From positions 1 to 23,261 of the IMG/VR virus record IMGVR_UViG_3300042294_003853: DNA of 23,261 nt. One strand, 5' to 3'. The notes beneath the pieces are model-generated. The model had not been told where the DNA came from. It saw nothing but the letters and a program-made list of their open reading frames with translations, and ran no database searches. The stretch is from a virus. Positions within the stretch are counted from its first letter, which is position 1. The number at the start of each line of letters is the position of its first letter. Below, one piece after another: positions 257 to 19,238 of this stretch. The position numbers were made by a program, and so were the translations under genes.

Positions 257-778
257 TCAGCCGGCGAGGGGCTTCACGAGGAAGTCCTTGCGGTAAGTCC
301 TGCCGTTGACCTGGTCGTACTGGCACTTCACGACGACTGCGACCGCGTCCTGGCCGTTGATCTTGGCGTCGGCATCCGCGATTGCGGTTCCGATATCCTT
401 GACGTCACGGCGCAGGATGGTCTGGAGGTGGCCTTTCAGGCGGCGCATCTCGATATCGACGCGCATCCGGCCCTTCTCGTCCAGGACGCTGGTGTCCTGC
501 GGGAGGCGGAAGGAAGCGCCGTCGAACGAGCGGGGCTCGCTGGGCTGGTCAGCGTCGTTGATGAGCTGGTAGCGGAAGCTGATCTCCGTACCGGCGACCT
601 TCTGGCCGTCAGGCAGCTTGTACTCGCTCGGGCGGACCGACAGGCTGGACACGAAGACCTCGTGCTGGCCCTCGGCCGGCCACCAACCGCCAGCACCCAT
701 GCCGTTGTCGGGCTGGGCCTGCGCGAAGGAGGCGTTGAGTGAGTTGAACATGGCCTTGACGTTGTTCTCAATGGGCAT
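257..778 (-). CDS. possible phage ssDNA-binding protein (173 aa)
   Basis: I start at the ATG at 778 (MPIENNVKAMF) because GGAG lies 6 nt before it; an in-frame start 39 nt upstream would cover the Shine-Dalgarno. The protein has a low-complexity N-terminus with GMGAGGWWPAEG, a beta-rich middle (HEVFVSSLSV, TEISFRYQLI) and ends in YRKDFLVKPLAG. No catalytic motif is visible. It is the last gene of a cluster containing a RecB-like nuclease and a RecA-like ATPase. In many phages a DUF669-type ssDNA-binding protein occupies that position. The assignment rests mainly on this context and on the beta-rich pattern, so it is tentative. Confidence 0.45.
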   Translation of the reverse strand: MPIENNVKAMFNSLNASFAQAQPDNGMGAGGWWPAEGQHEVFVSSLSVRPSEYKLPDGQKVAGTEISFRYQLINDADQPSEPRSFDGASFRLPQDTSVLDEKGRMRVDIEMRRLKGHLQTILRRDVKDIGTAIADADAKINGQDAVAVVVKCQYDQVNGRTYRKDFLVKPLAG

Positions 779-800
779 CTGATGCTCCGTAAAGAGGGGT

Positions 801-830
801 GAAAAGAAACGAAACAAACGAAACGAAGAT
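801..830 (-). promoter_or_regulatory. GAAAC-repeat leader of the 257-778 gene
   Basis: The gap between the ATPase stop (855) and the start at 778 holds closely spaced GAAAC units, including CGAAAC at 810-815 and 819-824. Leftward, this is a pyrimidine-rich leader of GTTTC units. CGAAAC/GTTTCG units also make up the palindrome near 3780, so a shared regulator is possible. Confidence 0.3.
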
Positions 831-836
831 GGGGAA

Positions 837-872
837 GCGAACGCGGTTCCCGCGTCAGCGGACCGCGTTCGC
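837..872 (-). other. perfect 11-bp hairpin across the ATPase stop codon
   Basis: Arms GCGAACGCGGT (837-847) and ACCGCGTTCGC (862-872) pair perfectly around a 14-nt loop that contains the stop codon of the ATPase gene (855-857). Leftward it is followed by a pyrimidine-rich stretch without a clean U-run. It is one of several long perfect hairpins just upstream of leftward genes in this window. Confidence 0.6.
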
Positions 873-1754
873 GGTCTCGTAGGCAGAGCAGAAGGATCCC
901 CACGCGTTGTCGCGTGGGAGCTCGACCGTGGTGAGCGGCGAGAGCGTGCGGACCTTCGCGATGCCCTCGAGCTTGGGGTTGTCGAAAGAGCAGTAGTGCC
1001 GACGCACCTTCTCCTGCGTAGTCACCTTTCGCGTAAGCACCTTGCCGCCGACGTTCGCCTCCTGGTCCCTGCTGACTTCGCGGATGTCCCAATGCGCGGT
1101 GACCGGGATCACGATGTCGAACATGGGGAACATGCGGGCGTACAGGCCGTCCGAGATGAGGATCTTGTACTCCTCGACGTTCTGGTTCTCGCTGAGGGGG
1201 ACGTGCTTGCGGGACAGGTGGGCGATGTAATAGACGCCGTACCCGTGCCGGCGCAGGGTCGTGCCGAACTCGATGAGGGTGTCGAACAGTCGCTCCCAGC
1301 CGAGTCGGCCGTCCACGTCGGTGAACCGCTCGCGGCCGTAGAGCTTGGCGATGTGCGGACGCAGGAGCCGGATGGCGGCACCGAGCGTGTCGATCACCAC
1401 CGTCTCCGGGCGGGGCTGGTTCGTGCGGGCCAGCTCAAGCAGGATCTTCTGCTTCGCCTCGATTGCGGACCAATCGAGCACGACGGGATTTCCCTTCTCG
1501 TCCACTGATCGGCCGTCAGGACCGGGGGTGGGGAACATGACCGCCTCGCTGGTGCCGCAGACCGCAGGCGTCTCGTCCAGGTTGAGGATGTACGCGCCAG
1601 GGTGGGACTGCAGGAGGAAAGACTTGCCGCAGCCAGCCTCACCGACCACAAGACCAAGCATGCGGGAAGGAGTAGTGCGACCAGTGGTGACGGCATTGCC
1701 GAGTCCTGCGTACTTGGATGCGACGGTGGAACCGTGAGTGACGGAGTGTGTCAT
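855..1754 (-). CDS. RecA-like P-loop ATPase, probable phage recombination protein (Sak4-type)
   Basis: This 299-aa protein has a Walker A motif GEAGCGKS at about residues 38-45, a Walker B-like strand TVVID near 118-122, and a polar strand YYIAHLSRK near 175-183. That order is typical of the AAA_24/RecA-like phage ATPases that include the Sak4 single-strand annealing proteins. These act on ssDNA with a phage ssDNA-binding protein and a nuclease, and candidates for both flank it. The ATG at 1754 is preceded by AAAGGAG with 5 nt spacing. A one-mismatch copy of the repeated decamer (1771-1780) fills the gap directly after the previous stop codon. The ATPase fold is secure; the annealing role is inferred from the family and neighbours. 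Confidence 0.75.
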   Translation of the reverse strand: MTHSVTHGSTVASKYAGLGNAVTTGRTTPSRMLGLVVGEAGCGKSFLLQSHPGAYILNLDETPAVCGTSEAVMFPTPGPDGRSVDEKGNPVVLDWSAIEAKQKILLELARTNQPRPETVVIDTLGAAIRLLRPHIAKLYGRERFTDVDGRLGWERLFDTLIEFGTTLRRHGYGVYYIAHLSRKHVPLSENQNVEEYKILISDGLYARMFPMFDIVIPVTAHWDIREVSRDQEANVGGKVLTRKVTTQEKVRRHYCSFDNPKLEGIAKVRTLSPLTTVELPRDNAWGSFCSAYETANAVR

Positions 1755-1781
1755 GATGACTCCTTTGGGGGTTGGTGGGGG

Positions 1782-2312
1782 TCAGTTCGCGTAATCGTTG
1801 CTGCCGAAGAAGGTCGGGGCCCTGAAGCCGCCGGGCAGGATGTCGGGCATGCCGTCGTTGAAGGAACTTATGTCTGCCTCGCGGGGCGTTGGCTTCATGT
1901 CCCATTCCACGGGGGCGTCCGGGTCCACGGGCTGCTCCCCGATGATCTGGGTGCCTTCGGGCGAGATCATGGCGACCGGGACGGTGTGCACGCGCTGGAC
2001 CGGCATGGGACCCTGGAAGTCCGCGGCCGGGCGTGGCATCTCGCGCCAGCCGGGGATGGTCACCTCGATGCGCTTGCGGAAGTTGATGCCCAGATCTTCG
2101 CACCACCCGCTGAAGGTGGAGTACGAGGGCTTGACCCCGTGCATCTCGCAGAACGCCCGGTGGAGCTGCTGCCTGTTCTCGATGTCCGGGTTCGCCTTCA
2201 CGGCCTCCGCGATGCGTGGTGCGATCACGAGCCGCAGGCAGTCATGCCACATGACGGGCCCGAGCACGGACTTTCCTGCTTCCTGGCTGGTGGGGTTAGG
2301 TGCTTCCTCCAT
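1782..2312 (-). CDS. hypothetical protein with possible helix-turn-helix (176 aa)
   Basis: The ATG at 2312 has GGAG 7 nt upstream and overlaps the end of the nuclease gene by 17 bp, so the two are translationally close. Residues about 45-78 (QQLHRAFCEMHGVKPSYSTF and following) read like a helix-turn-helix, with a tryptophan-containing second helix. The C-terminal half is proline-rich and probably flexible. It lies between nuclease and ATPase in the recombination cluster, so a DNA-binding accessory role is plausible but unproven. Codons 6-9 contain the repeated decamer (AAC CCC ACC AGC). I do not recognise the family. Confidence 0.6.
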   Translation of the reverse strand: MEEAPNPTSQEAGKSVLGPVMWHDCLRLVIAPRIAEAVKANPDIENRQQLHRAFCEMHGVKPSYSTFSGWCEDLGINFRKRIEVTIPGWREMPRPAADFQGPMPVQRVHTVPVAMISPEGTQIIGEQPVDPDAPVEWDMKPTPREADISSFNDGMPDILPGGFRAPTFFGSNDYAN

Positions 2313-3522
2313 TGTCGATCTCCGTGTGAGTGTCCCTGTCGCGTTGCAGGAAACCCTCAGCCAGAATCAACTCAGGCCACTTGCCAGGCTCGACCATGTG
2401 GAACGGCAGGTACGGCGACGGAGTGCCGTGCTGAACTACCGGATCACCAATCTCGAATTCGCTGGGCTGGGACGGGCGCTGTGTGTACTTCCGGATGAAG
2501 GACAGGCGATCATGGTACTCGGTCTTGAGATCTTCCGCAAGAAGAAGTTCCGCGGAAGTTGTGGAAATCGCGATGCACGGATCGGTCAGCCGCTCGGGCT
2601 CGAAGTGGCTGTACTCTCCGCGTCCCAGGTACCAATCCAGGCAGCGTTGTTCGTAGAGGTACGGGTCAGGCTCGCCCGTGTAGATGCGCTCGTTGCGCGG
2701 CTCGCCCTTGCGGGGGCCGCTCTTGAACGGGCTTTCGTCCAGCGTGAAGGGGCGGTCCTTCAGACCGAACTCGATGCTGGGCTTGCGCACGGCGATGTGC
2801 AGGACGCCGCCTATCTTGTCGCTGCCCCATTGCAGCGCCAGCTCGGGTGAGTCAAGTTCCATGGCCTCGAGCAGGGTGTGGAAGTAGTGCTGTGTCTGGA
2901 ACTCGAGAGGGCAGGTCTGCAGGCGGGCATTTGTGGACATGGACGTGGTCTTGAAGTCCACGATCCACAACTTGCCTGCCTTGTCCCGGAGGATGCAGTC
3001 GGGCTGGATCAGCCGGTCGCCGACCTTGATCTCGGGCTCCTGCTCCACGACGGTCCAATCCTCCGCGAACCGCTGGCCCAGCGTCTTGCCGCTGCCGTCC
3101 GGTACCTGCAGCGCCGCGTTGAACCACGCGATGCTGGTGCGTGCGTCCTGCTCCTCCCGCGCCACCATCTCCCGGACCTTGTCGCCGGACACGCCCATCT
3201 GCTTGCACACGTCCCGCAGTTCCTCGCACCGAGCGACGATGGCCTGCTCCAGCGTCAGGGCCCGCTCGGTGGGGTCATCGAGGATGCACGCGAACGCCAG
3301 GTGGACCCAGCTGCCTCGGCTCAGGGCACGGCTGTACTGGAACGCCTTGACCAGCCCGAGCTTGCGGGACAGGTAGTAGGTGCGGGGGCAGGACCGGAGG
3401 AGCCGGTAGTCGCTGCTGCGGATGTGGGGCCTACGGGCAAAGATGCCGTGGGCCTCGAGCCACGAACGGACATCGTCAAGAATGCTGGTGGGATAGGACG
3501 CCTGGCTGGTGGGGGGTGGCAT
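2296..3522 (-). CDS. PD-(D/E)XK nuclease of the RecB/Cas4-like type
   Basis: This 408-aa protein shows the RecB-family nuclease signature. An N-terminal SSDYRLLRSCPRTYYLSRKL segment resembles the opening helix of PDDEXK_1 proteins. Then come Asp175 in IQPDCI, the D189-F-K191 core (WIVDFKTTS) and a QxxxY motif at 209-213. Known members are exonucleases or recombination nucleases that resect dsDNA ends. Followed by a Sak4-like ATPase and a possible ssDNA-binding protein, it fits a phage recombination module. The ATG at 3522 has AGGAG 6 nt upstream. The Chi-like decamer is in codons 3-6, and a further octamer copy is at 3484-3491. No Cas4-type cysteine cluster is evident, and no cas genes are nearby. 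Confidence 0.8.
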   Translation of the reverse strand: MPPPTSQASYPTSILDDVRSWLEAHGIFARRPHIRSSDYRLLRSCPRTYYLSRKLGLVKAFQYSRALSRGSWVHLAFACILDDPTERALTLEQAIVARCEELRDVCKQMGVSGDKVREMVAREEQDARTSIAWFNAALQVPDGSGKTLGQRFAEDWTVVEQEPEIKVGDRLIQPDCILRDKAGKLWIVDFKTTSMSTNARLQTCPLEFQTQHYFHTLLEAMELDSPELALQWGSDKIGGVLHIAVRKPSIEFGLKDRPFTLDESPFKSGPRKGEPRNERIYTGEPDPYLYEQRCLDWYLGRGEYSHFEPERLTDPCIAISTTSAELLLAEDLKTEYHDRLSFIRKYTQRPSQPSEFEIGDPVVQHGTPSPYLPFHMVEPGKWPELILAEGFLQRDRDTHTEIDNGGST

Positions 3523-3540
3523 AGGGGACTCCTGGGGTTA

Positions 3541-3576
3541 GCGCACGCGGGGCGCGTAGCGCTCCCCCGCGTGCGC
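3541..3576 (-). other. 12-bp perfect leader hairpin before the nuclease gene
   Basis: Arms GCGCACGCGGGG (3541-3552) and CCCCGCGTGCGC (3565-3576) enclose a 12-nt loop. The hairpin ends 18 nt before the ATG at 3522, just upstream of its Shine-Dalgarno. There is no U-run on either side, so I favour a leader or processing structure over a terminator. Confidence 0.65.
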
Positions 3577-3858
3577 GACTTTAGGGGGTAGCGTTGTAGC
3601 ATGTGCTTCACCCATGCTGATGATCTAACATCCCGCCTCGGGTCGGAGGCCAAGAACAAGATGCCGTGGGTTCGCCGGCAATGCGGGTAGTGGGAATCCC
3701 GCTCAGCAAATGGGCTGTGTCGAAACCTAGGTCAACGGATCGAACTTACTACATTTCTTCACGTTTGTAGCAGTTTCGGTACGAAACGGTCGTTTCGTAA
3801 GCGGTAAGGAAAAGTGGTAAGTGTTTCTTACCGGCTGCGGGTTCCCGTAAGTGGAGGT
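3577..3858 (-). promoter_or_regulatory. regulatory gap with operator-like palindrome and CTTAC repeats
   Basis: This non-coding stretch, less G+C-rich than its surroundings, separates the HExxH gene from the nuclease gene. It holds a 9+9 bp palindrome with a 2-nt centre, TACGAAACGGTCGTTTCGTA (3780-3799). Further CGAAAC/GTTTCG half-sites lie at 3721-3726 and 3773-3778. A small inverted repeat GGTAAG/CTTACC lies at 3816-3832, and further CTTAC units flank it when read leftward. A TTGACC hexamer occurs leftward near 3730, but I see no convincing -10 at the right distance. The arrangement looks like an operator region for the recombination operon (3522 to 257). The regulator is unknown. Confidence 0.45.
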
Positions 3859-4131
3859 TTAAGTTCCAGTCCGGCGGTACCCCACCCGCCAGAGGGCGGC
3901 GGATATGGCGTTGGCCGTGTCGTGAACCGCTTCTTCGTCCAGGTCCCATAGCGCGGCGTGCAGGACCTCGTGGATGATCGAGTCCATGGTCCGCTCGTCG
4001 GGGTAGCCCAGGGCGATGCGGATGATCCGCTCCTCCTTGTGGCAAAGTCCCTCTGCGTCACCCAGGTTGGGCACGAACCGCAAGCGCCAGCGCTGACCAC
4101 GGATCTTGAGGATGCGGTCGCCCTTCGCCAT
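3859..4131 (-). CDS. minimal HExxH putative zinc metallopeptidase (90 aa)
   Basis: The start is the ATG at 4131 (MAKGDRILKIRGQ). The central motif HEVLHA at residues 54-59, followed by the acidic run DLDEEAVHD, has the HExxH pattern of zinc metallopeptidases such as small SprT-like phage proteins. At 90 aa it is close to the minimum for one catalytic domain, and it has no signal peptide or membrane segment. There is no Shine-Dalgarno before the ATG. Instead CCCCACCAGCC, the complement of the repeated decamer, abuts the start codon, directly after the phosphoesterase stop. Translation may depend on coupling to the upstream gene. Zinc binding is likely from the motif; substrate unknown. Confidence 0.65.
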   Translation of the reverse strand: MAKGDRILKIRGQRWRLRFVPNLGDAEGLCHKEERIIRIALGYPDERTMDSIIHEVLHAALWDLDEEAVHDTANAISAALWRVGYRRTGT

Positions 4132-4145
4132 GGCTGGTGGGGGTT
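4132..4145 (+). repeat. Chi-like decamer filling an intergenic gap
   Basis: GGCTGGTGGGGGTT spans essentially the whole gap between the stop of the phosphoesterase (4145-4147) and the ATG at 4131. In the leftward mRNA it takes the place normally held by a Shine-Dalgarno. Confidence 0.85.
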
Positions 4146-5059
4146 CAGTGCGCGAGGTGGAATTCGGGAGTGAGCTGGTAGTACGTCTTGTGTTCGCCGC
4201 TTGTGGTGCGGCCTGACTTCTTGGCCATGTACAGGCGGAGCCAGACCGCTCCCTGCACTTCGGGCCCGCGGCCCTGCTCGATGTGCCAACCGCTGTGGCC
4301 GTCACCGAACTCGTCCTTGTAGGTGCCCGTGCGGACGTGGTACTGGATGTCGCTGACCACCCGGCAACCGGCCTTGTCGCACACCAGCCGCTCGCGGGAC
4401 AGCGGCATGAACCACTGCTTGTGCACGTGGCCCTGCACGATGATGTCTGCGTCCGGGATGACTGCCGCCTGCCGCCGCACTTTGAGCGTGTCGAACGACA
4501 TGAGCGCGGCACCGCCTGCACCGTGGAAGTACTTGAGGGACAGCGTGTAACGCTCGTTGTTGATCTCCGTGAAGAAACGGATCCAGCCGCCGTATCCTCC
4601 GGGATACACCTTGTCACCGGACTGCTGGCTCATGCGCTCGCACAGCCGCTCAGTGAGGTCCGTCTCGCAGTTCTTGAGGATCGCGGACTCGTGGTTGCCG
4701 CGCCCGATGACCACGAAGTTACCGGCGTAGGGGGAGTAGAAGTCGGAGGCGTGCCGGACTAGGGAATCGAGGTAGTCCGCAGCCAGTGCATGCTCTTCGC
4801 GTATGCCGCTCTTGTTGCGCCGAGGATCGAACTTGCCTTCCATCGCGCAGAAGAGATCGCCCACGTCAATGATGCCCGCACGACGCTCAACTGCCTGGTC
4901 CAGATGCGTTCGCTCGAGGTCATGGTCAGCGTGGGGGTTATCGTGGTGGCGGTCCCCGGACAGGAGGAACCACCACTCATCCGTTCTTGAGGTGCACGTA
5001 AGGTCAACGAGGTGTATGTTCCTCGAAGCTGCCCTCACCTTGAACGGGACGTTGGGCAT
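4145..5059 (-). CDS. calcineurin-like metallophosphoesterase (304 aa)
   Basis: All signature blocks of the metallophosphoesterase superfamily are present: GDRHHD (35-40), GDLF (67-70), GRGNHES (119-125), YFHG (177-180) and QGHVH (209-213). These residues form a dinuclear metal site that cleaves phosphomono- or phosphodiesters. I start at the ATG at 5059 (MPNVPFKVR) because it overlaps the stop of the 38-aa gene as TGATG. The longer open frame to 5137 would overlap that small gene. Phage members of this family are thought to act in nucleic acid metabolism or end processing, but the substrate cannot be told from sequence. Confidence 0.8.
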   Translation of the reverse strand: MPNVPFKVRAASRNIHLVDLTCTSRTDEWWFLLSGDRHHDNPHADHDLERTHLDQAVERRAGIIDVGDLFCAMEGKFDPRRNKSGIREEHALAADYLDSLVRHASDFYSPYAGNFVVIGRGNHESAILKNCETDLTERLCERMSQQSGDKVYPGGYGGWIRFFTEINNERYTLSLKYFHGAGGAALMSFDTLKVRRQAAVIPDADIIVQGHVHKQWFMPLSRERLVCDKAGCRVVSDIQYHVRTGTYKDEFGDGHSGWHIEQGRGPEVQGAVWLRLYMAKKSGRTTSGEHKTYYQLTPEFHLAH

Positions 5060-5175
5060 CAGAACTTGGAGCCGTGCTTCTTGCAGAGGAACCAGCCGGC
5101 CACGAAGCCGACCACGCCGAGCAGGGCTGCGAACCAAAGGCTACCGAGGAAATCGCCGAAATCAGCAAGGATCAT
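5059..5175 (-). CDS. 38-aa single-pass membrane protein
   Basis: This short ORF begins with an ATG at 5175 that overlaps the preceding stop as TAATG, and ends in a TGATG overlap with the phosphoesterase. AAAGG lies about 6 nt before the start. The protein is one hydrophobic segment (LWFAALLGVVGFVAGWFL) followed by a basic tail CKKHGSKF. Tight coupling on both sides supports it as a real gene. It lies next to two other small membrane proteins, so a role in lysis or at the cell envelope is a reasonable guess, but no family is recognised. Confidence 0.65.
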   Translation of the reverse strand: MILADFGDFLGSLWFAALLGVVGFVAGWFLCKKHGSKF

Positions 5176-5675
5176 TATGAACCTTTCTTGTGAATGCGTC
5201 GCCACGCAGCATCGAACTCCGGGTCTGATGCGCGCCGCGCAGCGACATACTCGCGAGCATCTTCCGGTTTAGAGGGGTCCAGCATTCCGGACGCGAGAGC
5301 CGCGTCCTGCACCTTGCGGCGCGGCAGCCAGCCGATGGCAACCCTGATGACCGTGCCCAATCCGGTCTGCCACAGCAGCACGCAGATCCCGATAACCACG
5401 ACTGCGGCAGCCACCCACCACACCGTCTCCAGCCACGCAGGAGTCTTGTTCTCCAGGTGCGGAAGCTGCCCGTGAATGTCAACGGCCAGGTCGTGAATGG
5501 TCTCGGCACGGGTCACCACCTCCTGGTCACCCACGGCCTTGCCGTGGTCGATGAGGGCCTGGGACTCGGCCTGGATCGCGGTCGTGTTCCTGCTCACGCG
5601 AGCGAGCGGATTGCACCCCACCAGCAGGCTAGCGGCGAGGATCAAGCTGGCGTTCGATCTTGTCCAGCCGTGCAT
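5175..5675 (-). CDS. putative lipoprotein with an internal membrane segment (166 aa)
   Basis: The N-terminus ends in a lipobox-like LLVGC with Cys20 after a hydrophobic stretch, as in bacterial lipoproteins. A second hydrophobic segment (VWWVAAAVVVIGICVLLW) lies near residues 85-102. The region between them looks helical. The start at 5675 has AGGAGG 6 nt upstream and lies inside the 5629-5829 gene in another frame, a 47-bp overlap. An embedded lipoprotein gene after a small membrane gene recalls Rz/Rz1 spanin pairs. The extra membrane segment and 166-aa length do not fit a classical o-spanin. Codons 17-20 carry the repeated decamer in opposite orientation. Membrane location is likely; a lysis role is inference. 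Confidence 0.55.
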   Translation of the reverse strand: MHGWTRSNASLILAASLLVGCNPLARVSRNTTAIQAESQALIDHGKAVGDQEVVTRAETIHDLAVDIHGQLPHLENKTPAWLETVWWVAAAVVVIGICVLLWQTGLGTVIRVAIGWLPRRKVQDAALASGMLDPSKPEDAREYVAARRASDPEFDAAWRRIHKKGS

Positions 5676-5829
5676 TCATCGCCTCCTGCTGCGCCACCAG
5701 GCGCATGAGCAACCGGTCGTGCGTGAGGTATCCGCTGCCGAGGATCGTGAGCAGCGTGATCGCCACCCCGATGATGCCGACCCAATCGCGGGTCGACAGG
5801 CGCACGATGTTGTTCTGCTCTCTGGTCAT
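5629..5829 (-). CDS. 66-aa membrane protein with coiled-coil tail (holin- or i-spanin-like)
   Basis: MTREQNNIVRLSTRDW is followed by a hydrophobic segment (VGIIGVAITLLTILGSGYL) and a charged helical tail with heptad-like spacing (LLMRLVAQQEAMNARLDKIE). One N-terminal membrane helix plus a short coiled coil is seen in some small holins and truncated i-spanins. The start at 5829 lies 11 nt after the previous stop and has only a weak Shine-Dalgarno. The next gene begins inside it. No endolysin was recognised in this window, so the lysis assignment remains a guess from topology. Confidence 0.55.
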   Translation of the reverse strand: MTREQNNIVRLSTRDWVGIIGVAITLLTILGSGYLTHDRLLMRLVAQQEAMNARLDKIERQLDPRR

Positions 5830-5840
5830 GGCTTCGTCGT

Positions 5841-6146
5841 TCAGAAGAAGACTCTGTATGGGGTGGTGGGGGTAGGTGTCACGATTGGAAGACTCGAGAG
5901 CTGTTCGGCGGTGAGCTCGAAACTGGTTCTCAGGTTTGCGTGGTACCCCGAATCGCCCCGCTTCTGGACATACCCGTCCTCGTCCAGAATGTCCGGGATC
6001 TGGCCGATGTAGTCAATCTCGACACCGGGCCCCCAATAGAAGACCTCTTCCCCTTCCATGACCTTCATCTTCAGCAGACCGGATTCGAGAAGTGCCTCGT
6101 TCATCTCGCGTTCGCTGCGGGTCCTCAGCATGAAGTCAAGGATCAT
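5841..6146 (-). CDS. hypothetical protein downstream of the fibre gene (101 aa)
   Basis: The ATG at 6146 overlaps the fibre stop as ATGA, with AAGGA 9 nt upstream, so I prefer it to an in-frame GTG at 6191 that would overlap the fibre gene more. The protein is acidic (EREMNEALLESGLL, DILDEDGYVQKRGD), has no membrane segment, and ends in a Pro/Thr-rich tail. Its position directly after a fibre gene and close coupling suggest a fibre chaperone, attachment factor or minor virion protein. That is context only. Base composition is A+T-richer than the genome around it, matching the fibre. Confidence 0.55.
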   Translation of the reverse strand: MILDFMLRTRSEREMNEALLESGLLKMKVMEGEEVFYWGPGVEIDYIGQIPDILDEDGYVQKRGDSGYHANLRTSFELTAEQLSSLPIVTPTPTTPYRVFF

Positions 6147-7393
6147 GGAATCAGATCCTTCATCTGAGAATCCGTCAGGGCGTAGTTCCACACCTCAATC
6201 CTCTGCAACGTCATCGGAATTACGATTGATGAATCGTTAAAGAGAGGCATCATAACCAGGTCCGATGGGGTCAAATCGGTGACCGATGAGCCCTTCACGA
6301 TTGTTCCCGGTGATCCGCTACCCGTCGTCAGCGACTTCGCTTCGTTCTTGCTGAGGGTAAACACGGAAGTGAAGTCACTCAGCACGCTTCCGCTTGAGGG
6401 AAAGAAGTTTCCTGAGTTTATGGAAAAAATCGCAGCGTTGAAGGAACACCCCGTCGTTATCGCGTTTGACGTCGAGGCGTAATAATTTCTCCCGGAGTCA
6501 GCTCCCCATCCTTCAGCCGAGGAGTTTTCAAAGTAGAAGAAAGTTCCACTATTCGTTGATGGTGAACTAGGTCTACCCCTGAACTTCAGGAAGACGCTGT
6601 TCCCGTTATTCAGCTGCGCATAAAACGATGGGCCAGAATTTCCATACAAGAAATCCATAGCTCTCGAAGCGCCTGTTGTCGTTGTCTTGATGTAGCTGGT
6701 GGGAGTGGCCGCACCGGTTGCAACACCAGAAGTTTGATAGATTTCAACCTGCGCTCCCCAAATTTCGATAGTGTCGTTAAGCGCGACTACCCGAATTGAG
6801 GGGATAGTGTGGCTACTTGCGGCGGAAATATGAAACCTTTTCCAGGTGGAAGTTACTCCGGATAGGGTCGTGTAGGTGCTGTTGTTTAAGGACAGCTGGA
6901 TGTTCCCTGTCCCAGAAACCCTTCGGATCCACACCGAGAAGACTCTTCCCGACCCGGTACTTGCTATTGTCTGCCGGATTGTCCCGTTTGCTCCGATTGC
7001 CTGAATCCTCAATGCTGTAGCTGTCAAGTCCGGTGCCAGTGCATTCGTTGCAAGGCGGCTGATGCTTGAATCAACCCAGTTCGTCGTGCCCCCGGATGTC
7101 GCAAACGTCTCCGAGTGGCAAAGCGTATTTGACCCATTCCGCTCGATGATCAAGCCGGGATAGGAAGGATCCTGGCTGAACCGGGGGACGTCTGTTCCAA
7201 CGGTTACTACTTGGCCGGTCCTTGTTTCGTAAGTCGCATTTCCAGTCCTAGAAAATTCAAGGTTTGGGGGAATGGAGCCAGTGGTAAGGTCCCACGAGAA
7301 GGTGCTTCCGTCACCCCCACCGAGCGGGGAGATGCGGTTGCGTTCCGTGCGCAACTCCGTCTGATCGAGGAGCCAGGTTCTGTTGCGGTGCAT
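6143..7393 (-). CDS. tail fibre/spike-like receptor-binding protein (416 aa)
   Basis: Ser, Thr, Asn and Gly are abundant throughout. The segments ERNGSNTLCHSETFATSGGT and IEIWGAQVEIYQTSG followed by TPTSYIKT match a pattern common in phage spike and fibre proteins. That pattern is a names-and-side module followed by a jelly-roll ending in the type WGAQxE...TSYI. The C-terminal half reads like a second beta-sandwich, possibly lectin- or concanavalin-like. It would bind the host surface. The ATG at 7393 overlaps the previous stop as TGATG. The region is visibly A+T-richer than its neighbours, as expected for exchanged host-range genes. The exact virion position is unknown. Confidence 0.65.
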   Translation of the reverse strand: MHRNRTWLLDQTELRTERNRISPLGGGDGSTFSWDLTTGSIPPNLEFSRTGNATYETRTGQVVTVGTDVPRFSQDPSYPGLIIERNGSNTLCHSETFATSGGTTNWVDSSISRLATNALAPDLTATALRIQAIGANGTIRQTIASTGSGRVFSVWIRRVSGTGNIQLSLNNSTYTTLSGVTSTWKRFHISAASSHTIPSIRVVALNDTIEIWGAQVEIYQTSGVATGAATPTSYIKTTTTGASRAMDFLYGNSGPSFYAQLNNGNSVFLKFRGRPSSPSTNSGTFFYFENSSAEGWGADSGRNYYASTSNAITTGCSFNAAIFSINSGNFFPSSGSVLSDFTSVFTLSKNEAKSLTTGSGSPGTIVKGSSVTDLTPSDLVMMPLFNDSSIVIPMTLQRIEVWNYALTDSQMKDLIP

Positions 7394-7881
7394 CAGAGCC
7401 CCGAGCTGAGAACGCTGATGACCGGCTGGCTGGGATTGCCACCCGCGACGACTTCAACGAATTGGCAGCCGAGGGTGTCCACCAGCACAAAGCCTCCGTT
7501 GCTCGTAGCGCCGACGCCCGCGTAGATCTTCACGTCGCCGGTAAGCTTCGTGGCGTTCACCATCTCGTAGACGGTGCCCACTCCCGGAACCGTGGAGGTG
7601 GATCCGTTGGGAACCATAGTGAACGAGCAAAGCAGCTGCGGAACCCACGCCATCTGGTCAGGCCAGAATGACCAACCCCAGACAAAGATTGATTCGTTGC
7701 TTGAAGCGCTTGAATAAAACTTAAGCTTCAGGTAGTTCAGGCTTGTCCCGATCACCGTGGAACTGTTGTCCGTGGGCCGGGTCGTCTGGACAATCCGAAC
7801 TTCGTTGCCCGCTGCGTCCGAAATCTCGAACGACGTCAGTGCAAAGCTCTTGACGTCCGTGGTCAGGGTGACGTGTGCCAT
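7393..7881 (-). CDS. probable virion protein upstream of the fibre (162 aa)
   Basis: A beta-rich, Ser/Thr/Val-rich protein (MAHVTLTTDVKSFALTSFEI; YEMVNATKLTGDVKIYAGVG) with no catalytic motif. The composition is like that of phage structural proteins, and it is coupled to the fibre gene. The ATG at 7881 has AGGAG with a short 4-nt spacer. Its first 161 bp overlap the 3' part of the ERCC4 nuclease frame. The N-terminal residues look well-formed, so I accept this start. Fibre base, connector or decoration are all possible; no family recognised. Confidence 0.55.
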   Translation of the reverse strand: MAHVTLTTDVKSFALTSFEISDAAGNEVRIVQTTRPTDNSSTVIGTSLNYLKLKFYSSASSNESIFVWGWSFWPDQMAWVPQLLCSFTMVPNGSTSTVPGVGTVYEMVNATKLTGDVKIYAGVGATSNGGFVLVDTLGCQFVEVVAGGNPSQPVISVLSSGL

Positions 7882-8371
7882 CGCGCTCCTGCGACAGGAG
7901 CCACCTCAATGCCCATTCACCTGCGGCCCTACGCTGGCCGGTCGTGCTCAGGGGAAGCAGCATCAGGGGCAACCCGTGCTCCCCGATGATATCCAATAAA
8001 GCGTCGGCCGCAACGCCCGGATGGGGAAGTCCTGCCCGAACCTCGAAGCCCCCCACCAGCCCCTCGAACAGGAGGCAGGCGGTGCGGCACTCAGAGCGGA
8101 GGCGGCGGCAGCAGTCCATAAAACGGCGGCGGCCGTCGAGGGTTAGGCAGTTACCGGCGATCTCCTCGAAGGAGCCCTTGCGCTCGATTGCGCTGGTGCC
8201 CCCCACCAGCCGGTAGTCACCAGTCTTCAGGGTCTCGGACTTCGTGCGGACCGTAACTGTGCGTGACTTGCCGGCGGTGGGGAGCTTGGTCCTGTCTAGC
8301 ACGACGAGGTGCGCGGGGAAGGAGAGGGGTTTCTTCTCCCGACTGTCGATCAGGACCGTGACCTGGGACAC
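7721..8371 (-). CDS. ERCC4/XPF-type nuclease (216 aa, unusual C-terminus)
   Basis: The N-terminal part shows the ERCC4 nuclease core: TVLIDSREKKPLSF, then KTGDYRLVGG followed by AIERKGSFEEI, matching the GDx(n)ERK active site. The helical part FMDCCRRLRSECRTACLLFEG and GEWALRWLLSQE fits the rest of the fold. These enzymes cut branched or flapped DNA and occur in phages, where they probably process replication or recombination intermediates. The start is a GTG at 8371 with a poor Shine-Dalgarno. The last 50 or so residues (after about LLSQERDG) are polar, low in hydrophobics and overlap the next gene by 161 bp. The conserved domain probably ends near the start of that gene. The tail could be a genuine overlap or the scar of a recombination junction. 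Confidence 0.7.
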   Translation of the reverse strand: MSQVTVLIDSREKKPLSFPAHLVVLDRTKLPTAGKSRTVTVRTKSETLKTGDYRLVGGTSAIERKGSFEEIAGNCLTLDGRRRFMDCCRRLRSECRTACLLFEGLVGGFEVRAGLPHPGVAADALLDIIGEHGLPLMLLPLSTTGQRRAAGEWALRWLLSQERDGTRHPDHGRQELCTDVVRDFGRSGQRSSDCPDDPAHGQQFHGDRDKPELPEA

Positions 8372-8387
8372 GCCGCCATGCTATCAA

Positions 8388-8789
8388 TCAACCCTCGCCC
8401 TTGTACATCTCGACTGCCGCAGCCCGCGCAAGTTGCGCAAGTTCCTCGTCCTTGTGGCGGGCGGGCACCCGGTTCATCTCGAAGGTCAGCGTCATCTTGC
8501 CGAGCCACCACTCGGGGGTGGGCAGGAAGCCCATGTCCTCCATCACGTGCTGCTCCGCGACCAGCCGGACCGGCACCTCCCTTGGCTTGTCCTTAATCCA
8601 GACCGTGATGGTGTCACCAAACTTTTCCTCACACCAGAAGATCCCGACGGTGTGGTGGCGCAGGGCACGGTGACGTGCGTCGCCGAAGTACTTCTTGGTT
8701 TCGTCAAACCACTCGTGGATTCTCATGTAATTCTCGACAATGCCGCCGAACTTCTTGACGGAGGAGAGGGCGTGGTGGTAGGGGTGCAT
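8388..8789 (-). CDS. DUF6915-like protein (133 aa)
   Basis: The segments MHPYHHALSSVKKFGG, IHEWFDETKKYFGDARHRAL, RHHTVGIFWCE and VPVRLVAEQHVMEDMGFLPT match my recollection of the DUF6915 family, found in phages and bacterial genomes, function unknown. The family is usually nearer 80-110 aa. The extra C-terminal 30 residues (MTLTFEMNRVPARHKDEELA) are a local extension. Several conserved His and Asp residues could bind metal. The ATG at 8789 overlaps the previous stop (TGATG) and has GGAG 8 nt upstream. Confidence 0.65.
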   Translation of the reverse strand: MHPYHHALSSVKKFGGIVENYMRIHEWFDETKKYFGDARHRALRHHTVGIFWCEEKFGDTITVWIKDKPREVPVRLVAEQHVMEDMGFLPTPEWWLGKMTLTFEMNRVPARHKDEELAQLARAAAVEMYKGEG

Positions 8790-9190
8790 CAGAAGTGCTC
8801 CACTTCGTCGGGGCTCTCGTCCTGACTTGACTCGAACAGGACCTCGTGATGTTGCGCAATGGTGCGCTCCTTGCTGGATATCGTGAAGTATCCGCAGGAT
8901 CCCATGACGTGGCCGTCACCGATCTCCCAGCCCGGGAACCTGCGCTCGAGGGTGTTGCCGAGCTCCTCGAACACCTCGCGCTCGAGGGATGCGATGAGGC
9001 GGGTCGCGTTGTCGGGTGCCGACATGCCCATGTCGGAGCCGTCCTCGTTGCGGAGGAAGATCTGGTCGAACCAACCGGAGTCGTTGGAACCGGAGTAGGT
9101 GACGTGGAGGATGAAGTCCTTGCCGATGATCGGCTTGAGCTGTGACATCAGGTTGCGGATGGTGGGGTACTTAGTCACGGTCGTCCTCAT
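8789..9190 (-). CDS. DUF6878-like hypothetical protein (133 aa)
   Basis: Residues around MSAPDNATRLIASLEREVFE, RRFPGWEIGDGHVMGS and FTISSKERTIAQHHEVLFES resemble DUF6878 proteins as I remember them; function unknown. It is acidic and soluble with no motif suggesting catalysis. The ATG at 9190 has AGGA 8 nt upstream and lies inside the end of the preceding gene (20-bp overlap). DUF6915 and DUF6878 in adjacent, coupled genes may indicate a shared pathway, which is inference. Confidence 0.5.
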   Translation of the reverse strand: MRTTVTKYPTIRNLMSQLKPIIGKDFILHVTYSGSNDSGWFDQIFLRNEDGSDMGMSAPDNATRLIASLEREVFEELGNTLERRFPGWEIGDGHVMGSCGYFTISSKERTIAQHHEVLFESSQDESPDEVEHF

Positions 9191-9488
9191 GGGGGTTGTC
9201 CTGGAAGTTGGGTGCGTTCACGATGTCGGTCGCCTTCTCGAGCAGCAGGCGGTTCAGGCGGTCACCGTGCAGCTCGAGCGCACGGACGATGGTGGATGGC
9301 TTGTTGTCCCCGTAGAACCACTCGAACTCCTCGTCCTTGCTGTTGACCATGTCCACCCGGACGAGGATCGGGTCCATGTCGGGCAGCCAGGCGTCGTCCA
9401 CCTTGCGGTCCCTGAAGATGCGGCATTCGTAGGTTGCCTGCATGAACAGGCCCGGTGTTTCGATGGTGAGCGTTATGTCCTTAGTCAT
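9171..9488 (-). CDS. hypothetical protein (105 aa)
   Basis: I start at the ATG at 9488 (MTKDITLTIETPGLF), with GGAG 9 nt upstream and an 8-bp overlap with the previous gene. An in-frame ATG at 9509 would lengthen it by seven residues. The sequence has a beta-rich N-terminus (ATYECRIFRDRKVDD) and an acidic tail NFQDNPHEDDRD. No family recognised. It belongs to the four-gene string just downstream of the DNA polymerase. Confidence 0.55.
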   Translation of the reverse strand: MTKDITLTIETPGLFMQATYECRIFRDRKVDDAWLPDMDPILVRVDMVNSKDEEFEWFYGDNKPSTIVRALELHGDRLNRLLLEKATDIVNAPNFQDNPHEDDRD

Positions 9489-9798
9489 CGTTGGGATCTC
9501 CGAAGTCAAGTTCGATCTCGTCGGCGTCCGGGCTGAAGCGGATGCGCCATGCCTCCCACTTCAGGTCGAAGGAGGAGAAGTCCTCTGCTGCCTTGCAGTC
9601 CTGCTGGAAGTTTCGGGCGCTCCGGTTGAAGAGGATGATCGCGCCGAGTGCGGGGAAGTTCTCGTCGTCCGCGGTTGCGGCTGCGGTCCATGCGTCGTTG
9701 CGGATGACGGAGTTCAGGAATCCGCCTGGTTCGTAGCCGTGCTTGTAGTAGCGGTACAGCGCGCCGAAGCAGTGCGGGGGAACGGTGAGGTTGCGCAT
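9481..9798 (-). CDS. small conserved-looking phage protein (105 aa)
   Basis: MRNLTVPPHCFGALYRYYKH, then GYEPGGFLNSVIRNDAWTAA and ADDENFPALGAIILFNRSA. This pattern (a helix, then a HGxxPGGFLxxVxxND element, then a short helical end) recurs in small phage proteins of unknown function, in my recollection. The start at 9798 is four bases beyond the polymerase stop and has a weak Shine-Dalgarno, so it probably depends on polymerase translation. The C-terminus is strongly acidic (DADEIELDFGDPNDD). Confidence 0.55.
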   Translation of the reverse strand: MRNLTVPPHCFGALYRYYKHGYEPGGFLNSVIRNDAWTAAATADDENFPALGAIILFNRSARNFQQDCKAAEDFSSFDLKWEAWRIRFSPDADEIELDFGDPNDD

Positions 9799-9801
9799 GT
9801 G

Positions 9802-11877
9802 TCACTCGTAGATGAGGGGTGCGTGGTGTCCGGAACGATTGCAGAGTTCGTGCCAGTAGCCTGCGGTGCCGACGAATTGCACGGCGGTCTCCATCAGGTC
9901 TCGGGCCTGCTGCTCCGTGCCTGCCGGGCAGTCGAAGTACAGGGCGTCGTAGACCTGGAGGAAGAGGAGGGGCTGGCGGTGGCTGGTGGGGGATGTGAGC
10001 GGGCCGAGCGCCCGATGGATGAAGTTCTGGATGGCGAGCATCACGTTGCCGGCGGTTGCCTGCACGGGGAAGTTGCAGACTTCGGAGATCATCGACTTGC
10101 CGCCACGCCCCACCAGCTGGCGGAGCTCACGGCGGGTGCGCCATGCGCGTTCGTCCAGCCGGAAGTTGGTGAAGGTGCGGGTGTGGCCGGTGAAGGGGAG
10201 CTCGATGTAACCGGCGGACTCCGCCTGCTTGCAGAGTGAGTGCTGCCACTCCACGAGCGCGGGTCGTTGGGCGTGGCGGGACGCGACGATCTGGTCGAAG
10301 AAGGAGAGGGGATACAGCGTGCCCGACATGTCGAGGACCGAGCGCTGGAGCCGGGCGGCGGATGCGCCGAAGAGGTCCGCGAAGTTGACGGTCTTGCCGA
10401 TCTGGCGGAGGGCCTTGAAGTCAGGGCGGTCGGCGGAGGTTGGTCCGAAGATGGCGAGCGTGCGCTGGGTGTGCAGGTCGAGGCCATCGTTGAACGCGGC
10501 GAGGAGGGTGGGCTCGCCCGAGAGGATGGCTGCGACGCGGAGCTCGATCTGGCTGAGGTCGAAGGAGACGATGCTGCCGCCCGTGAAGCGGGACTCCTCG
10601 CAGTCCTTGATGACGGCGGGGAATGTCTGGGCAGCGGGGTTCTTGCAGGTAATGCGGGCCTGGATGGTGCCGCCCTCGGAGCCCGAGTCCTTGGGCACGG
10701 ACGGGACCGTGTACCAGGTGGGGTAGGCGATGCCGATGTCAGGCCTATCTGTCCGTTTCAGAAGGACAGATGACTTGTCGGTCGGCTTGGTTCGCCGGTG
10801 GCGCAAGAGGGGATATGTGTAGGACGAGACCAACTTCTGGGCGGTGGCGTGAGCGTCGGCACACGCGAAGATGGTGCGTGCTGGATGAGAGTCGGGCAAG
10901 TGGCTGGAGATCAGGCGTCTGTTCTCGCTGGACCATGAGAGCTCCTTGTTCTTCTCGGTGTAGGTGAGGAGGGGATGCGCGAGGAAGTCGGGGTTGGTGG
11001 GGAGGATGTCCTCGATGCACCGGGACATGAACTCCCGCTGGGACTGGACGCTGCCCTCGCCCTCGATCAGGACTCCGCCTGCTGCTGCGCAGTTCGATGC
11101 CTCGTCGGCCTGGCGGAGCAGGTCCTTCTCGAGTGCGGTGAGACGGGGCAGTGAGAATGGGATGCCGGCCTCCGACATGCGGATCGTGGACCACAGCGTG
11201 TCGCTGAAGTGCCGGATGCTGTAGGCGCTGAGCTTGGCGGTGTCGGGGTAGTCGTGGCGGATGCGGTTGGCGAGGTGGGCCACGGCGAGCAGCGTGTTGT
11301 GCGTGTCCTGCGCGTTGTATGCGTGCAGGTTCGGGCAGGTGGGGGACGGGAAGCGGCGTCCGTCCTTGAGGGTTGCGGACTCCTGGTACGAGTGCGTGCC
11401 GAGGACGGGGCCGAGAGACTTGAGGCTGCGCTCGGGTCGGAGCTCGGAGTGCAGGAAGTTCACCACGCTGAGGTCGATGAGGGTGTGCCTGCCGCACAGG
11501 GCGAGGGCGAGTGCGGGGGTGTAGGCGCGGAGCCAGAGGATGTCGAACGGCAGGTTCATGCCGACGATGGTGTCGGCGTGGCGGAGCCATGCGAGGAGGA
11601 TGTCGTGGCTGGTGGGGTCGGTCAGGTTCAGGGTGAAGGTCGGGCCGGGCTGCAGGGAGGCGATGCCGTCGAGGCTGTTGAGGTCTTCGGGTTCGGTAGC
11701 TGCGACGGTGATGGCGCAGGTGAGTACGAGATCCTCCCGAGCAACGCCGTCCGTGGCGATTGCTCGGGCCGGATGGAAGACGGTCTGCACGGGGAGCAAC
11801 GTGCTCCGACCGTTGGTAGCAGCCGCTCCATAGGTCTCGATGTCAAGGGAGATGACTCGGGGACTGGTGGGGGTCAT
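9802..11877 (-). CDS. family A DNA polymerase with 3'-5' exonuclease domain (691 aa)
   Basis: The N-terminal exonuclease has ExoI (LDIETY, about 11-16), ExoII (MNLPFDILWL, about 108-117) and ExoIII (YNAQDTHNTL, about 188-197). The polymerase domain has motif A (FDLSQIELRVAA, about 440-451), motif B (RQIGKTVNFADLFG, about 492-505) and motif C (LQVYDALYF, about 641-649). It replicates the phage genome. Motif C reads YDA where most family A enzymes have HDE; the metal-binding Asp is kept. The ATG at 11877 lies two bases beyond the previous stop without a clear Shine-Dalgarno, and codons 2-5 are a one-mismatch copy of the repeated decamer. Exact decamers occur in the body at 9982-9991, 10108-10117 and 11608-11617. 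Confidence 0.92.
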   Translation of the reverse strand: MTPTSPRVISLDIETYGAAATNGRSTLLPVQTVFHPARAIATDGVAREDLVLTCAITVAATEPEDLNSLDGIASLQPGPTFTLNLTDPTSHDILLAWLRHADTIVGMNLPFDILWLRAYTPALALALCGRHTLIDLSVVNFLHSELRPERSLKSLGPVLGTHSYQESATLKDGRRFPSPTCPNLHAYNAQDTHNTLLAVAHLANRIRHDYPDTAKLSAYSIRHFSDTLWSTIRMSEAGIPFSLPRLTALEKDLLRQADEASNCAAAGGVLIEGEGSVQSQREFMSRCIEDILPTNPDFLAHPLLTYTEKNKELSWSSENRRLISSHLPDSHPARTIFACADAHATAQKLVSSYTYPLLRHRRTKPTDKSSVLLKRTDRPDIGIAYPTWYTVPSVPKDSGSEGGTIQARITCKNPAAQTFPAVIKDCEESRFTGGSIVSFDLSQIELRVAAILSGEPTLLAAFNDGLDLHTQRTLAIFGPTSADRPDFKALRQIGKTVNFADLFGASAARLQRSVLDMSGTLYPLSFFDQIVASRHAQRPALVEWQHSLCKQAESAGYIELPFTGHTRTFTNFRLDERAWRTRRELRQLVGRGGKSMISEVCNFPVQATAGNVMLAIQNFIHRALGPLTSPTSHRQPLLFLQVYDALYFDCPAGTEQQARDLMETAVQFVGTAGYWHELCNRSGHHAPLIYE

Positions 11878-11879
11878 CG

Positions 11880-12026
11880 TCAGTTGCAGGACTTGAGGAA
11901 GAACGAGATGAGGAACGCGAGAATAACGATTGGCGCAAGCCAGAACGCGATCATCACCACGGAGAGGAGGATGGCCCCGACCGAGTTGATGATCTGGCTG
12001 ACGTAGTCCGTAGGCTCGTTGCTCAT
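11880..12026 (-). CDS. 48-aa membrane protein
   Basis: MSNEPTDYVSQIINSVGAIL leads into one or two hydrophobic segments (LLSVVMIAFWLAPIVILAFL) and ends FFLKSCN. The start at 12026 has AAGGA 7 nt upstream and overlaps the previous stop as ATGA. It sits directly before the polymerase. Function unknown; small membrane proteins are common in phage early regions and include host-takeover and superinfection factors. Confidence 0.6.
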   Translation of the reverse strand: MSNEPTDYVSQIINSVGAILLSVVMIAFWLAPIVILAFLISFFLKSCN

Positions 12027-16726: not shown

Positions 16727-16762
16727 CCCCCACCAGCGTGCAGTAGCAGAGGCTGGTGGGGG
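16727..16762. repeat. inverted pair of Chi-like decamers forming an 11-bp hairpin
   Basis: CCCCCACCAGC (16727-16737) and GCTGGTGGGGG (16752-16762) are perfect reverse complements around 14 nt. The pair is non-coding, between the stop at 16778 and the GTG at 16695. A one-mismatch copy (ATGGTGGGG) follows at about 16769-16776. Confidence 0.8.
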
Positions 16763-18189: not shown

Positions 18190-18537
18190 TCAGAACTTGG
18201 GAAGGGCCTCCTCCTCGCGGGCGGCGGGGGTGGGGGCGGGCGCGGCCTTGGCGGTGGCCTCCGCCATGCGGGTGGCGTAGTAGACCGTCTGGCGCGCGCC
18301 GTCCTTGCGGGTGCCCGCGTCGTGCGTGTGGTCGAGGAAGCACTTGGTCAGGACGCCGGTGGCGGTGTCCGTGATCTCGAGGGTCGACCACGCGGGCTTG
18401 CCGGCGGACTTGGAGGGGATGTCCGTGGTCACGACGATCTTGAGGTCGGACGGACGGCGGACCTTCGAGGTGAGGTCCTCGATCATCTTGCGCTGCTCAG
18501 CGATCTGGGCCTTCAGCATGGCGATCTCGTTCTTCAT
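18190..18537 (-). CDS. hypothetical protein with N-terminal coiled coil (115 aa)
   Basis: MKNEIAMLKAQIAEQRKMIE begins a coiled coil of about 27 residues. A beta-rich domain follows (DLKIVVTTDIPSKS, WSTLEITDTATGVLTKCFLD) and an Ala/Pro-rich acidic tail ends it. The ATG at 18537 has AAAGGAG 6 nt upstream. A terminator lies on each side, so this gene appears to be its own short unit or a read-through target. No family recognised. Confidence 0.6.
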   Translation of the reverse strand: MKNEIAMLKAQIAEQRKMIEDLTSKVRRPSDLKIVVTTDIPSKSAGKPAWSTLEITDTATGVLTKCFLDHTHDAGTRKDGARQTVYYATRMAEATAKAAPAPTPAAREEEALPKF

Positions 18538-18598
18538 AGCGTGCTCCTTTCGAGCGAATGGGTGGATTCGGGTTCAACCATCTGCAACGCGCAGAGAG

Positions 18599-18628
18599 AA
18601 AAAACCCGCATCCCCCGTAAGGATGCGG
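18599..18628 (-). terminator. intrinsic terminator in the 18538-18975 gap
   Basis: Leftward, CCGCATCC pairs with GGATGCGG (18606-18613 and 18621-18628), followed by G and TTTTTT. It lies upstream of the 18537 start, so it either ends the helicase transcript or attenuates the next genes. Confidence 0.75.
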
Positions 18629-18975
18629 CACCAGTTATCGACCATCACATGGCGCACCGGGTCACGAGGGGCCTGGTGCTGAACTCCGGTACTAGCGTCC
18701 GATAGCGGTGGGCTGTGAGCAACCGTGATCCGGCGAGGGGGGTAGCGGCCCCCAGACGGTGTCCAGATAATAGGGGAAAGGGTCAATCCCTCTCAAAATT
18801 CCCCCACAAATACCTAACCTGTACCAGCAATACCAACCCTTCTTTCTTACGTAGAGAGAGTTACATATAAAGAATAGAACGCACAGGTCACTCCGGTATC
18901 CCCGGTACAATCCCCAAACAAACACCCCCCACCACCCGAAGGTGACAGGGGGCGCGTGGAGAGAAGACCAGAAGT
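18629..18975 (-). promoter_or_regulatory. regulatory gap downstream of the 84-aa gene
   Basis: About 350 bases with no gene. The right part (about 18780-18930) is clearly A+T-richer than the genome and holds the promoter-like element at 18767-18796. The left part is G+C-rich with short inverted repeats. A decamer-like CCCCCCACCACCC lies at 18925-18937. A leftward 70-codon frame (18574-18786) runs through the terminator and is not called. Confidence 0.45.
18767..18796 (-). promoter_or_regulatory. sigma70-like promoter, leftward
   Basis: Leftward, TTGAGA (18791-18796) and TATTAT (18767-18772) are separated by 18 bases; each differs from consensus at one position. Transcription would begin near 18760 and meet the terminator at 18628-18599 after about 150 bases. 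Confidence 0.45.
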
Positions 18976-19230: not shown

Positions 19231-19238
19231 CGGGCCTC

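Follow-up and report, generated by a model that had tools for sequence, protein, structure and literature searches.

A hypervariable and probably lasting slot for fibre genes within the DNA-metabolism block of a metagenome-assembled phage

For the O-antigen tailspikes of E. coli phages, one account (PMC10408124) describes a conserved anchor, an exchanged receptor-binding part and horizontal transfer, and it suggests that conserved DNA motifs beside the exchanged part are recombination hotspots. Distantly related Alteromonas phages are reported to share a host recognition module in which a fibre and a small downstream gene move together (PMC10579305). According to PMC10218006, the head spike and tail fibre of RcGTA bind capsule polysaccharide. 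Chi in E. coli is commoner in the core genome than in recently acquired genes, as cited in a paper on Chi sites in lambdoid phages (PMC3784561). In this study, we analysed 23,261 nt of the metagenome-assembled virus record IMGVR_UViG_3300042294_003853, and this whole stretch is called the window below. The results led us to consider it highly probable that one region of the window, the cassette, serves receptor-binding fibre genes as a slot that is both lasting and hypervariable, with content swapped among related phages. Fibre swapping in phages is already well known, and the slot is a clear new example of it.

The cassette coordinates, 5841-7881, match three minus-strand ORFs (Table 1). The leftward block of the window begins with a primase/helicase gene (19239-20654, PHROG 6088), continues with ssb-like, glycosylase-like, family A polymerase, DUF6915 and ERCC4-type nuclease genes, and leads on to a phosphoesterase, an exonuclease (PHROG match 1.8e-15) and a Sak4-like annealing protein (1.7e-10). 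The ssb-like and glycosylase-like labels are our own interpretation, and neither gene matched a PHROG model. The cassette lies inside this DNA-metabolism block in the order gene B, fibre, gene A, and is followed by the holin-like and lipoprotein-like genes. In G008, a relative's contig of 53.5 kb, the terminase and the leftward DNA-metabolism genes are on opposite strands, indicating that the cassette is away from the structural side, as an earlier note had claimed.

Table 1. Features in and around the fibre slot of the window
Feature	Coordinates	Strand	Evidence
ERCC4-type nuclease gene	7721..8371	-	PHROG 3490 E 5.6e-06; Pfam ERCC4 23.9 bits, slightly below cut-off 24
Gene B, 162-aa beta-sandwich protein, proposed fibre adaptor or base	7393..7881	-	tblastn in 17/18 slots; model; alignment
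Fibre gene, 416 aa	6143..7393	-	PHROG 5939; NCBIfam GTA_spike_fiber; fold match
Gene A, 101 aa from ATG at 6146 (116 aa from GTG at 6191)	5841..6146 (5841-6191)	-	homologues behind other fibres
Small membrane protein, weakly holin-like; holin-side slot edge	5629..5829	-	PHROG holin E 0.03 only
Lipoprotein-like membrane gene behind holin-like gene	5175..5675	-	conserved next to slot; lipobox from inspection of translation
Decamer GCTGGTGGGG in lipobox codons, invariant copy slightly outside slot	5616..5625	-	13/13 aligned relatives, 18/18 alleles

Searches for described relatives returned distant matches. Among phage records, the polymerase matched 883, every one below 60% identity; the sole match of the fibre was Synechococcus phage S-WAM2 at 26.6% (two records of one phage), and tblastn found no match for gene A or gene B at E 0.01. 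A morphotype search on the structural proteins gave only TerL (PHROG 38) and a weak SU10 adaptor match below the cut-off. A host search that scanned one genome per species with the polymerase alignment turned up no more than two loci, both in Flavobacteriia and distant (27% identity), and no host was inferred. A literature search under names tied to the phage group (DUF6915, planctophage and the like) returned nothing relevant.

The most direct evidence of exchange came from a comparison of the window with a related locus, L003. The two were 98.9% identical over 532-5833 on the holin side and 92.7% identical over 7277-11880, with a different fibre between, and blastn gave no alignment in 5834-7276. 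On the holin side, identity stopped at 5833, 4 nt ahead of the holin-like ATG. On the ERCC4 side, it fell some 12 codons into gene B (near 7844), beyond which patchy pieces of 73-90% extended further into gene B and the first fibre codons. The alternative slot was identical in L003, L004 and L005, which come from three metagenomes, and L002 (metagenome 3300044613) matched the window at 99.94% over 11.6 kb, through the cassette and both junctions. Exchange at the slot is directly supported by the window/L003 pair. Identity was lost in the same zones on both sides in the pairs L018/L019, L006/L008, L007/L008, L009/L008 and L099/L101, and on the holin side only in L012/L013 and L014/L015, where the other side was kept into or through gene B. 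In closely flanked pairs, identity on the holin side was often not regained until within the initial ~100 nt of the holin-like gene. Since the pairs lose identity at varying points, the slot edges are zones, not one fixed base.

We then considered the slot across relatives, using DUF6915, the Sak4-like protein and the phosphoesterase as queries and checking the resulting loci for both slot edges. Fifty loci had both edges and yielded 18 distinct slot sequences once identical ones were removed. Because both edges were the selection criterion, these 18 alleles cannot tell how often the arrangement is absent, nor are they independent of one another, since L006, L007 and L009 hardly differ and L014 and L015 share gene B. 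Every one of the 18 slots was occupied by B-like or fibre genes, with lengths of 416-6621 nt. The order ERCC4, B, variable fibre genes, holin-like gene, lipoprotein gene was common to relatives, and the content between gene B and the holin-like gene was replaced wholesale; the synteny comparison proposed by the earlier note thus gave kept edges around different content in 18 distinct slot sequences. Slot G+C was below both flanks in 16 of the 18 (exceptions L019 and L102). The content included PHROG 5939 head-spike/tail proteins (window, L003, L019), Mtd_N (L010, L018), a pectate-lyase-like beta-helix (L014), fn3 (L019) and, below the cut-off, CBM_5_12 in L006. Among the alleles scanned, known receptor-binding or tailspike domains were matched in the window, L003, L010, L014, L018, L019 and L101; the receptor-binding domain scan gave none for L008 (Pfam) and none for L016 (NCBIfam). 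Some slot fibres carry 'GDSNAGS', which resembles an SGNH-type hydrolase motif. An SGNH-type assignment for these fibres was rejected, as family scans of the L006, L008, L013, L014 and L016 proteins matched no such model.

The fibre is laid out as a short N-terminal anchor, a carbohydrate-binding-module-like domain at about residues 71-245 and a poorly modelled C-terminal part. It matched the tail protein family PHROG 5939 (4e-18) and NCBIfam GTA_spike_fiber (NF048003) at 48.4 bits, above the curated cut-off of 36. A profile of 11 fibre sequences, compared with solved proteins, placed the RcGTA head spike fibre Rcc01080 at the top (E 3.6e-29) and also matched E217 gp45 (3.9e-12), Pa193 gp46 (1.1e-11) and two xylanase chains (1.5e-4, 2e-4). 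The structure model was poor overall (pLDDT 55.8), and only residues ~71-245 were taken into the fold comparison, where the modelled domain resembled phage baseplate chains and carbohydrate-binding modules at Z 10-14; the best VIA-align matches were a Pa193 baseplate chain (Z 14.2) and an E217 baseplate chain (Z 12.3). The domain recurred in 15 further loci, 10 of which had no other protein in common with the window. The N-terminal motif was clear in the window, L003 and L019 (residues 1-63 at 60% in L003), looser in L010, L099 and L101, and not seen in L006, L013 and L016. Taken from family and predicted fold, the fibre is likely a host-recognition protein. The earlier note had read the cassette as a host-range module acquired by exchange. 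Family and modelled fold support the host-range role, and the L003 flanks, 92.7-98.9% identical around a different fibre, support the exchange; a single later arrival does not agree with a slot occupied in 18/18 alleles.

Gene A homologues were found behind other fibres, in L003 (50%), L019 (33%), L198 (48%), L201 (43%) and L106, L108, L111 and L115 (42-44%), and the gene was detected in 3 of the 18 slot alleles. Family scans with Pfam, PHROG and NCBIfam gave no chaperone family match for it. Gene B had a tblastn match in 17 of the 18 slot sequences, and an alignment of 15 sequences showed 12 invariant columns. Its structure model reached pLDDT 82.6, with only middling PDB fold matches (Z <=7.4), including a capsid chain of Agrobacterium phage 7-7-1 (Z 6.4), and a sequence comparison with solved proteins gave no match at E 0.1. 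The ERCC4 frame extends ~160 nt (its last ~54 codons, 7721-7881) into gene B in another frame, so an exchange of gene B alters the nuclease tail too. This C-terminal tail differs among relatives, and it looks dispensable since the L102 ERCC4 ORF stops at about the start of the next gene. Two slots, L011 7617-8171 and L012 3675-4271, hold gene B alone without a fibre gene; gene B may act alone in them, or they may be deletions.

In 500-nt windows from 6001 to 8000, cassette G+C was 0.504-0.586. Outside the cassette it was 0.596-0.706, apart from the cassette-edge window (0.552) and a second dip at 18501-19250 (0.556-0.590), which is mostly intergenic and absent from the earlier note. As a codon control, each gene was compared with the expectation from its own residues under the codon usage of 19 backbone genes (GC3 0.859), which themselves gave GC3 z-values of -3.2 to +3.1 when left out one at a time. 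The fibre had a GC of 0.524 against 0.625 expected and a GC3 of 0.597 against 0.863 (z -16.5). GC3 was 0.745 against 0.872 for the 101-aa gene A (z -3.6; 116-aa form z -5.6) and 0.755 against 0.873 for gene B (z -4.6). The composition signal is carried mostly by the fibre, and genes A and B are mildly low, barely beyond the backbone range. The claim of the earlier note that the fibre gene and its two neighbours are lower in G+C than both flanks was confirmed by the 500-nt windows and the codon control, only mildly for the neighbours. Among slot genes of relatives (in-frame genes only, with genes containing internal stops left out), 4 of 19 had backbone-like GC3 within 2 sd, namely the L019 fibre, L102 and L003 genes A and B.

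A Cys-rich structural ORF of two relatives, G005 and G008, had a GC3 of 0.585 and 0.588 (z -14.8 and -15.0, the G008 value calculated against G005 codon usage), and the presumed capsid ORFs of the same contigs, named by a guess from position, had no deficit (z +3.5 and +2.2). Because the Cys-rich ORF has the same codon bias, low G+C and codon bias alone are no proof of import. The ORF lies at 30786-32447 of G005 (in L180), 21261-22871 of G008 (in L186) and about 1.5-4 kb of G003 (in L191); its G+C is low in each of the three, its GC3 is strongly reduced in the two tested, and it is a second candidate for a surface-exposed variable protein.

The decamer GCTGGTGGGG occurred 19 times in the window, against a mean of 0.05-0.73 and a maximum of 2 in simulated sequences (Markov order 2-4). 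Together, 14 related records contain 321 copies of it and a single copy of the reversed control pattern. The earlier note had seen a cassette that lacks the exact decamer and has a single octamer, at 6695-6702, and had taken this to fit later arrival. The results showed that the decamer is indeed missing from 5841-7881, but the claim of a single octamer is wrong, as a second GCTGGTGG lies at 7479-7486 (minus strand, gene B). At 19 copies per 23,261 nt, 1.67 would be expected in the cassette (Poisson ~0.19), so the absence is not evidence by itself, and the reading as later arrival fails for this window taken alone. The argument does hold for the pooled slots, where 5 decamers were found in 45.3 kb and 39.6 were expected, compared with 211 in the 246 kb that these loci comprise outside the slot; 18/18 alleles were below their own flanks, and 0 of 5000 random-segment draws were as low (mean 32.1). 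One of the five slot copies, in L003, sits between gene A and the holin-like gene. With G+C matched, decamers per 500-nt window in slot and rest were 0.06 and 0.30 in the 0.60 bin, 0.11 and 0.50 in the 0.65 bin, and 0.06 and 0.07, with no gap, in the 0.55 bin. In 11 loci, the slot had 3 copies in 30.1 kb (0.10/kb), other variable segments 4 in 20.9 kb (0.19/kb) and the conserved backbone 130 in 127 kb (1.02/kb). Since the other variable segments are nearly as poor, the decamer is a backbone motif, and its absence fits recent content and is not special to the fibre. On five contigs of 49-54 kb, its density was 0.53/kb on the structural side and 0.64/kb on the early side (G009 structural, 0.21/kb).

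Conservation of the decamer exceeded that of G+C-matched 10-mers. Copies in aligned backbone were kept in 44-73% of cases for nine relatives at 79-83% identity, compared with 16-23% for the matched 10-mers, and in L003 it was kept at 15/15 sites, compared with 82.5%. The sites at 5616 (13/13 aligned relatives), 2286 (11/11) and 9982 (12/13) were well conserved, and those at 3505 (1/12) and 8051 (1/13) were poorly kept. The lipobox copy at 5616 was found in 18/18 alleles at a distance of 198-228 nt from where the holin-side match starts, and its codons CTG-GTG-GGG have a probability of ~0.02 by backbone codon usage (0.38 x 0.43 x 0.13). Together, and as far as shared ancestry allows, the invariance and this probability point to constraint at the DNA level. 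The nearest decamers on the ERCC4 side lay 33-2246 nt away, 11 in one orientation and 7 in the other; among the 18 alleles there was no fixed copy in constant orientation on that side, and hence no Chi-like two-sided orientation towards the slot, a feature that bears on the hotspot idea and is not the strict definition of Chi. The suggestion that decamers bracket the slot more closely than chance was likewise unsupported: the median distance was 371 nt on the ERCC4 side, compared with 656 nt for random points (30% as close), and 205 nt on the holin side (18%). Only the invariance of the holin-side copy is notable.

Some decamers are paired. Those at 16728 (-) and 16752 (+) form an intergenic inverted pair 24 nt apart, each kept in 7/8 aligned relatives, and pairs spaced 24 nt also occur in G006, G007, G011 and G012 among the matches listed; the 16728/16752 pair could be a terminator or a protein site. 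The pairs 9982/10108 and 13924/14050 are in opposite orientation and both spaced 126 nt, and the same spacing was seen in G011 and G012 among the matches listed. It is conceivable, though on balance unlikely, that the decamer is a recombination or maintenance signal special to the G+C-rich group, that the lipobox copy helps to make the slot a hotspot, that the fibres come from decamer-free relatives and that motif density acts as a residence clock.

A possible source was seen in a sister group. There were 23 further loci (within L082-L123) with the phosphoesterase and without both edges, of which four had fibre and gene A and 19 had a match to neither, some for lack of upstream DNA and some (e.g. 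L104, L112, L117, L120) despite thousands of bases upstream. In the four, L106, L108, L111 and L115, fibre and gene A homologues stand immediately before the lipoprotein gene, and ERCC4 and gene B were not detected. This sister group has a G+C of 0.50-0.53, with phosphoesterase 74-75% and lipoprotein 59-60% identical to the window; its fibres have a GC3 of 0.43-0.52 and are 27-44% identical (best 44% over 224, residues 27-250, L106). No decamer was found in 128 kb of seven sister-group loci (L104, L106, L108, L111, L112, L115 and L117, the last with G+C 0.587). A close fibre donor was not found, the best matches being 46% over 141 residues, 41% over 219 and 44% over 224 (L106). A lower-G+C, decamer-free pool with the fibre and gene A arrangement therefore exists, and the composition of the cassette fits such a source, with identities of only 27-44%; the sister group is possibly the best source candidate seen for such cassettes.

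From sequence, we infer the virion location and the receptor as follows. Protein B and the short N-terminal fibre anchor would fix the fibre to the virion, and the carbohydrate-binding domain would recognise a host surface glycan. Replacement may proceed by recombination in which the conserved flanks take part, and the exonuclease and Sak4-type annealing protein that the phage itself encodes possibly carry it out; the replaced content would be kept by selection for a changed host range. The low G+C and backbone-unlike codons may mark DNA from a lower-G+C, decamer-free pool that is not yet adapted to the backbone.

The plain reading of the earlier note was that a foreign fibre cassette entered this phage only, at a site lacking in its relatives. 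Low G+C, foreign codon usage and a cassette without the decamer agree with that account; however, all 18 slots hold B-like or fibre genes, and in four sister-group loci the same lipoprotein gene is preceded by fibre and gene A. The slot is therefore old and only its content recent. We regard such a one-off gain as very improbable. Under fast divergence in place, a vertically inherited fibre would have changed quickly under host selection, and exposed adhesins of this group would simply have relaxed, AT-richer codons. The low G+C of 16/18 slots is consistent with this, as is the Cys-rich structural ORF, homologous between relatives by eye, with the same GC3 deficit. The abrupt end of all nucleotide identity beside a 98.9% identical flank argues against it, as do the changes of domain type and gene number between alleles; moreover, L019 and L102 are backbone-like in composition, indicating that low GC3 is not required of slot genes. 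Divergence in place is thus quite unlikely.

An assembly chimaera of two metagenomic phages was considered because the window was assembled from a metagenome and L002 may share its origin. L002 nevertheless reproduces both junctions at 99.94%, and the other allele is identical in three contigs from three metagenomes, which leaves a chimaera exceedingly improbable. A separate question, compatible with exchange, is whether the fibre is a head spike rather than a tail fibre, with B as a capsid base and the fibre as a capsid-mounted glycan binder as in the Rhodobacter GTA. Rcc01080 is the top-scoring solved protein by sequence, the NCBIfam domain is named for the RcGTA spike, and the gene B fold matches include the phage 7-7-1 capsid chain. 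In contrast, the profile clearly matches the baseplate proteins E217 gp45 and Pa193 gp46, and a Pa193 baseplate chain gives the closest fold match. The fold matches of B reach a middling level, and what other alleles carry is of the tail-fibre or tailspike type. A head location is possible but rather doubtful.

Exchange of fibre content at a lasting slot remains the preferred reading, and it provides a clean natural pair of phages that differ in their fibres although the DNA around the slot is 92.7-98.9% identical. Such a pair is useful for host-range prediction and for the turnover rate of receptor-binding genes, in a group that had no close relative in the searched phage records. The conserved backbone motif is almost missing from segments that are exchanged or otherwise variable, which could be of use in locating genome parts that phages have replaced recently.

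As in the E. coli phage tailspikes described in PMC10408124, an anchor may be kept, a receptor-binding part is swapped and a motif lies nearby; unlike in that account, the slot here has genes for DNA metabolism and lysis-like functions around it, the terminase is on the other strand, and the nearby motif is a genome-wide decamer. The fibre with a small gene behind it resembles the Alteromonas phage module as reported in PMC10579305, whereas gene A has no chaperone family match and is present in only 3/18 alleles. The fibre domain is homologous to that of RcGTA Rcc01080, and the glycan binding proposed here parallels the capsule polysaccharide binding reported in PMC10218006; the adjoining protein B, in contrast, matched no solved protein by sequence at E 0.1, and the rest of the fibre differs. 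Compared with Chi as treated in PMC3784561, the motif here is ten bases long and occurs in phages that encode a Sak4-like annealing protein; like Chi, the decamer GCTGGTGGGG, which contains the E. coli Chi octamer GCTGGTGG, is over-represented and scarce in replaced segments.
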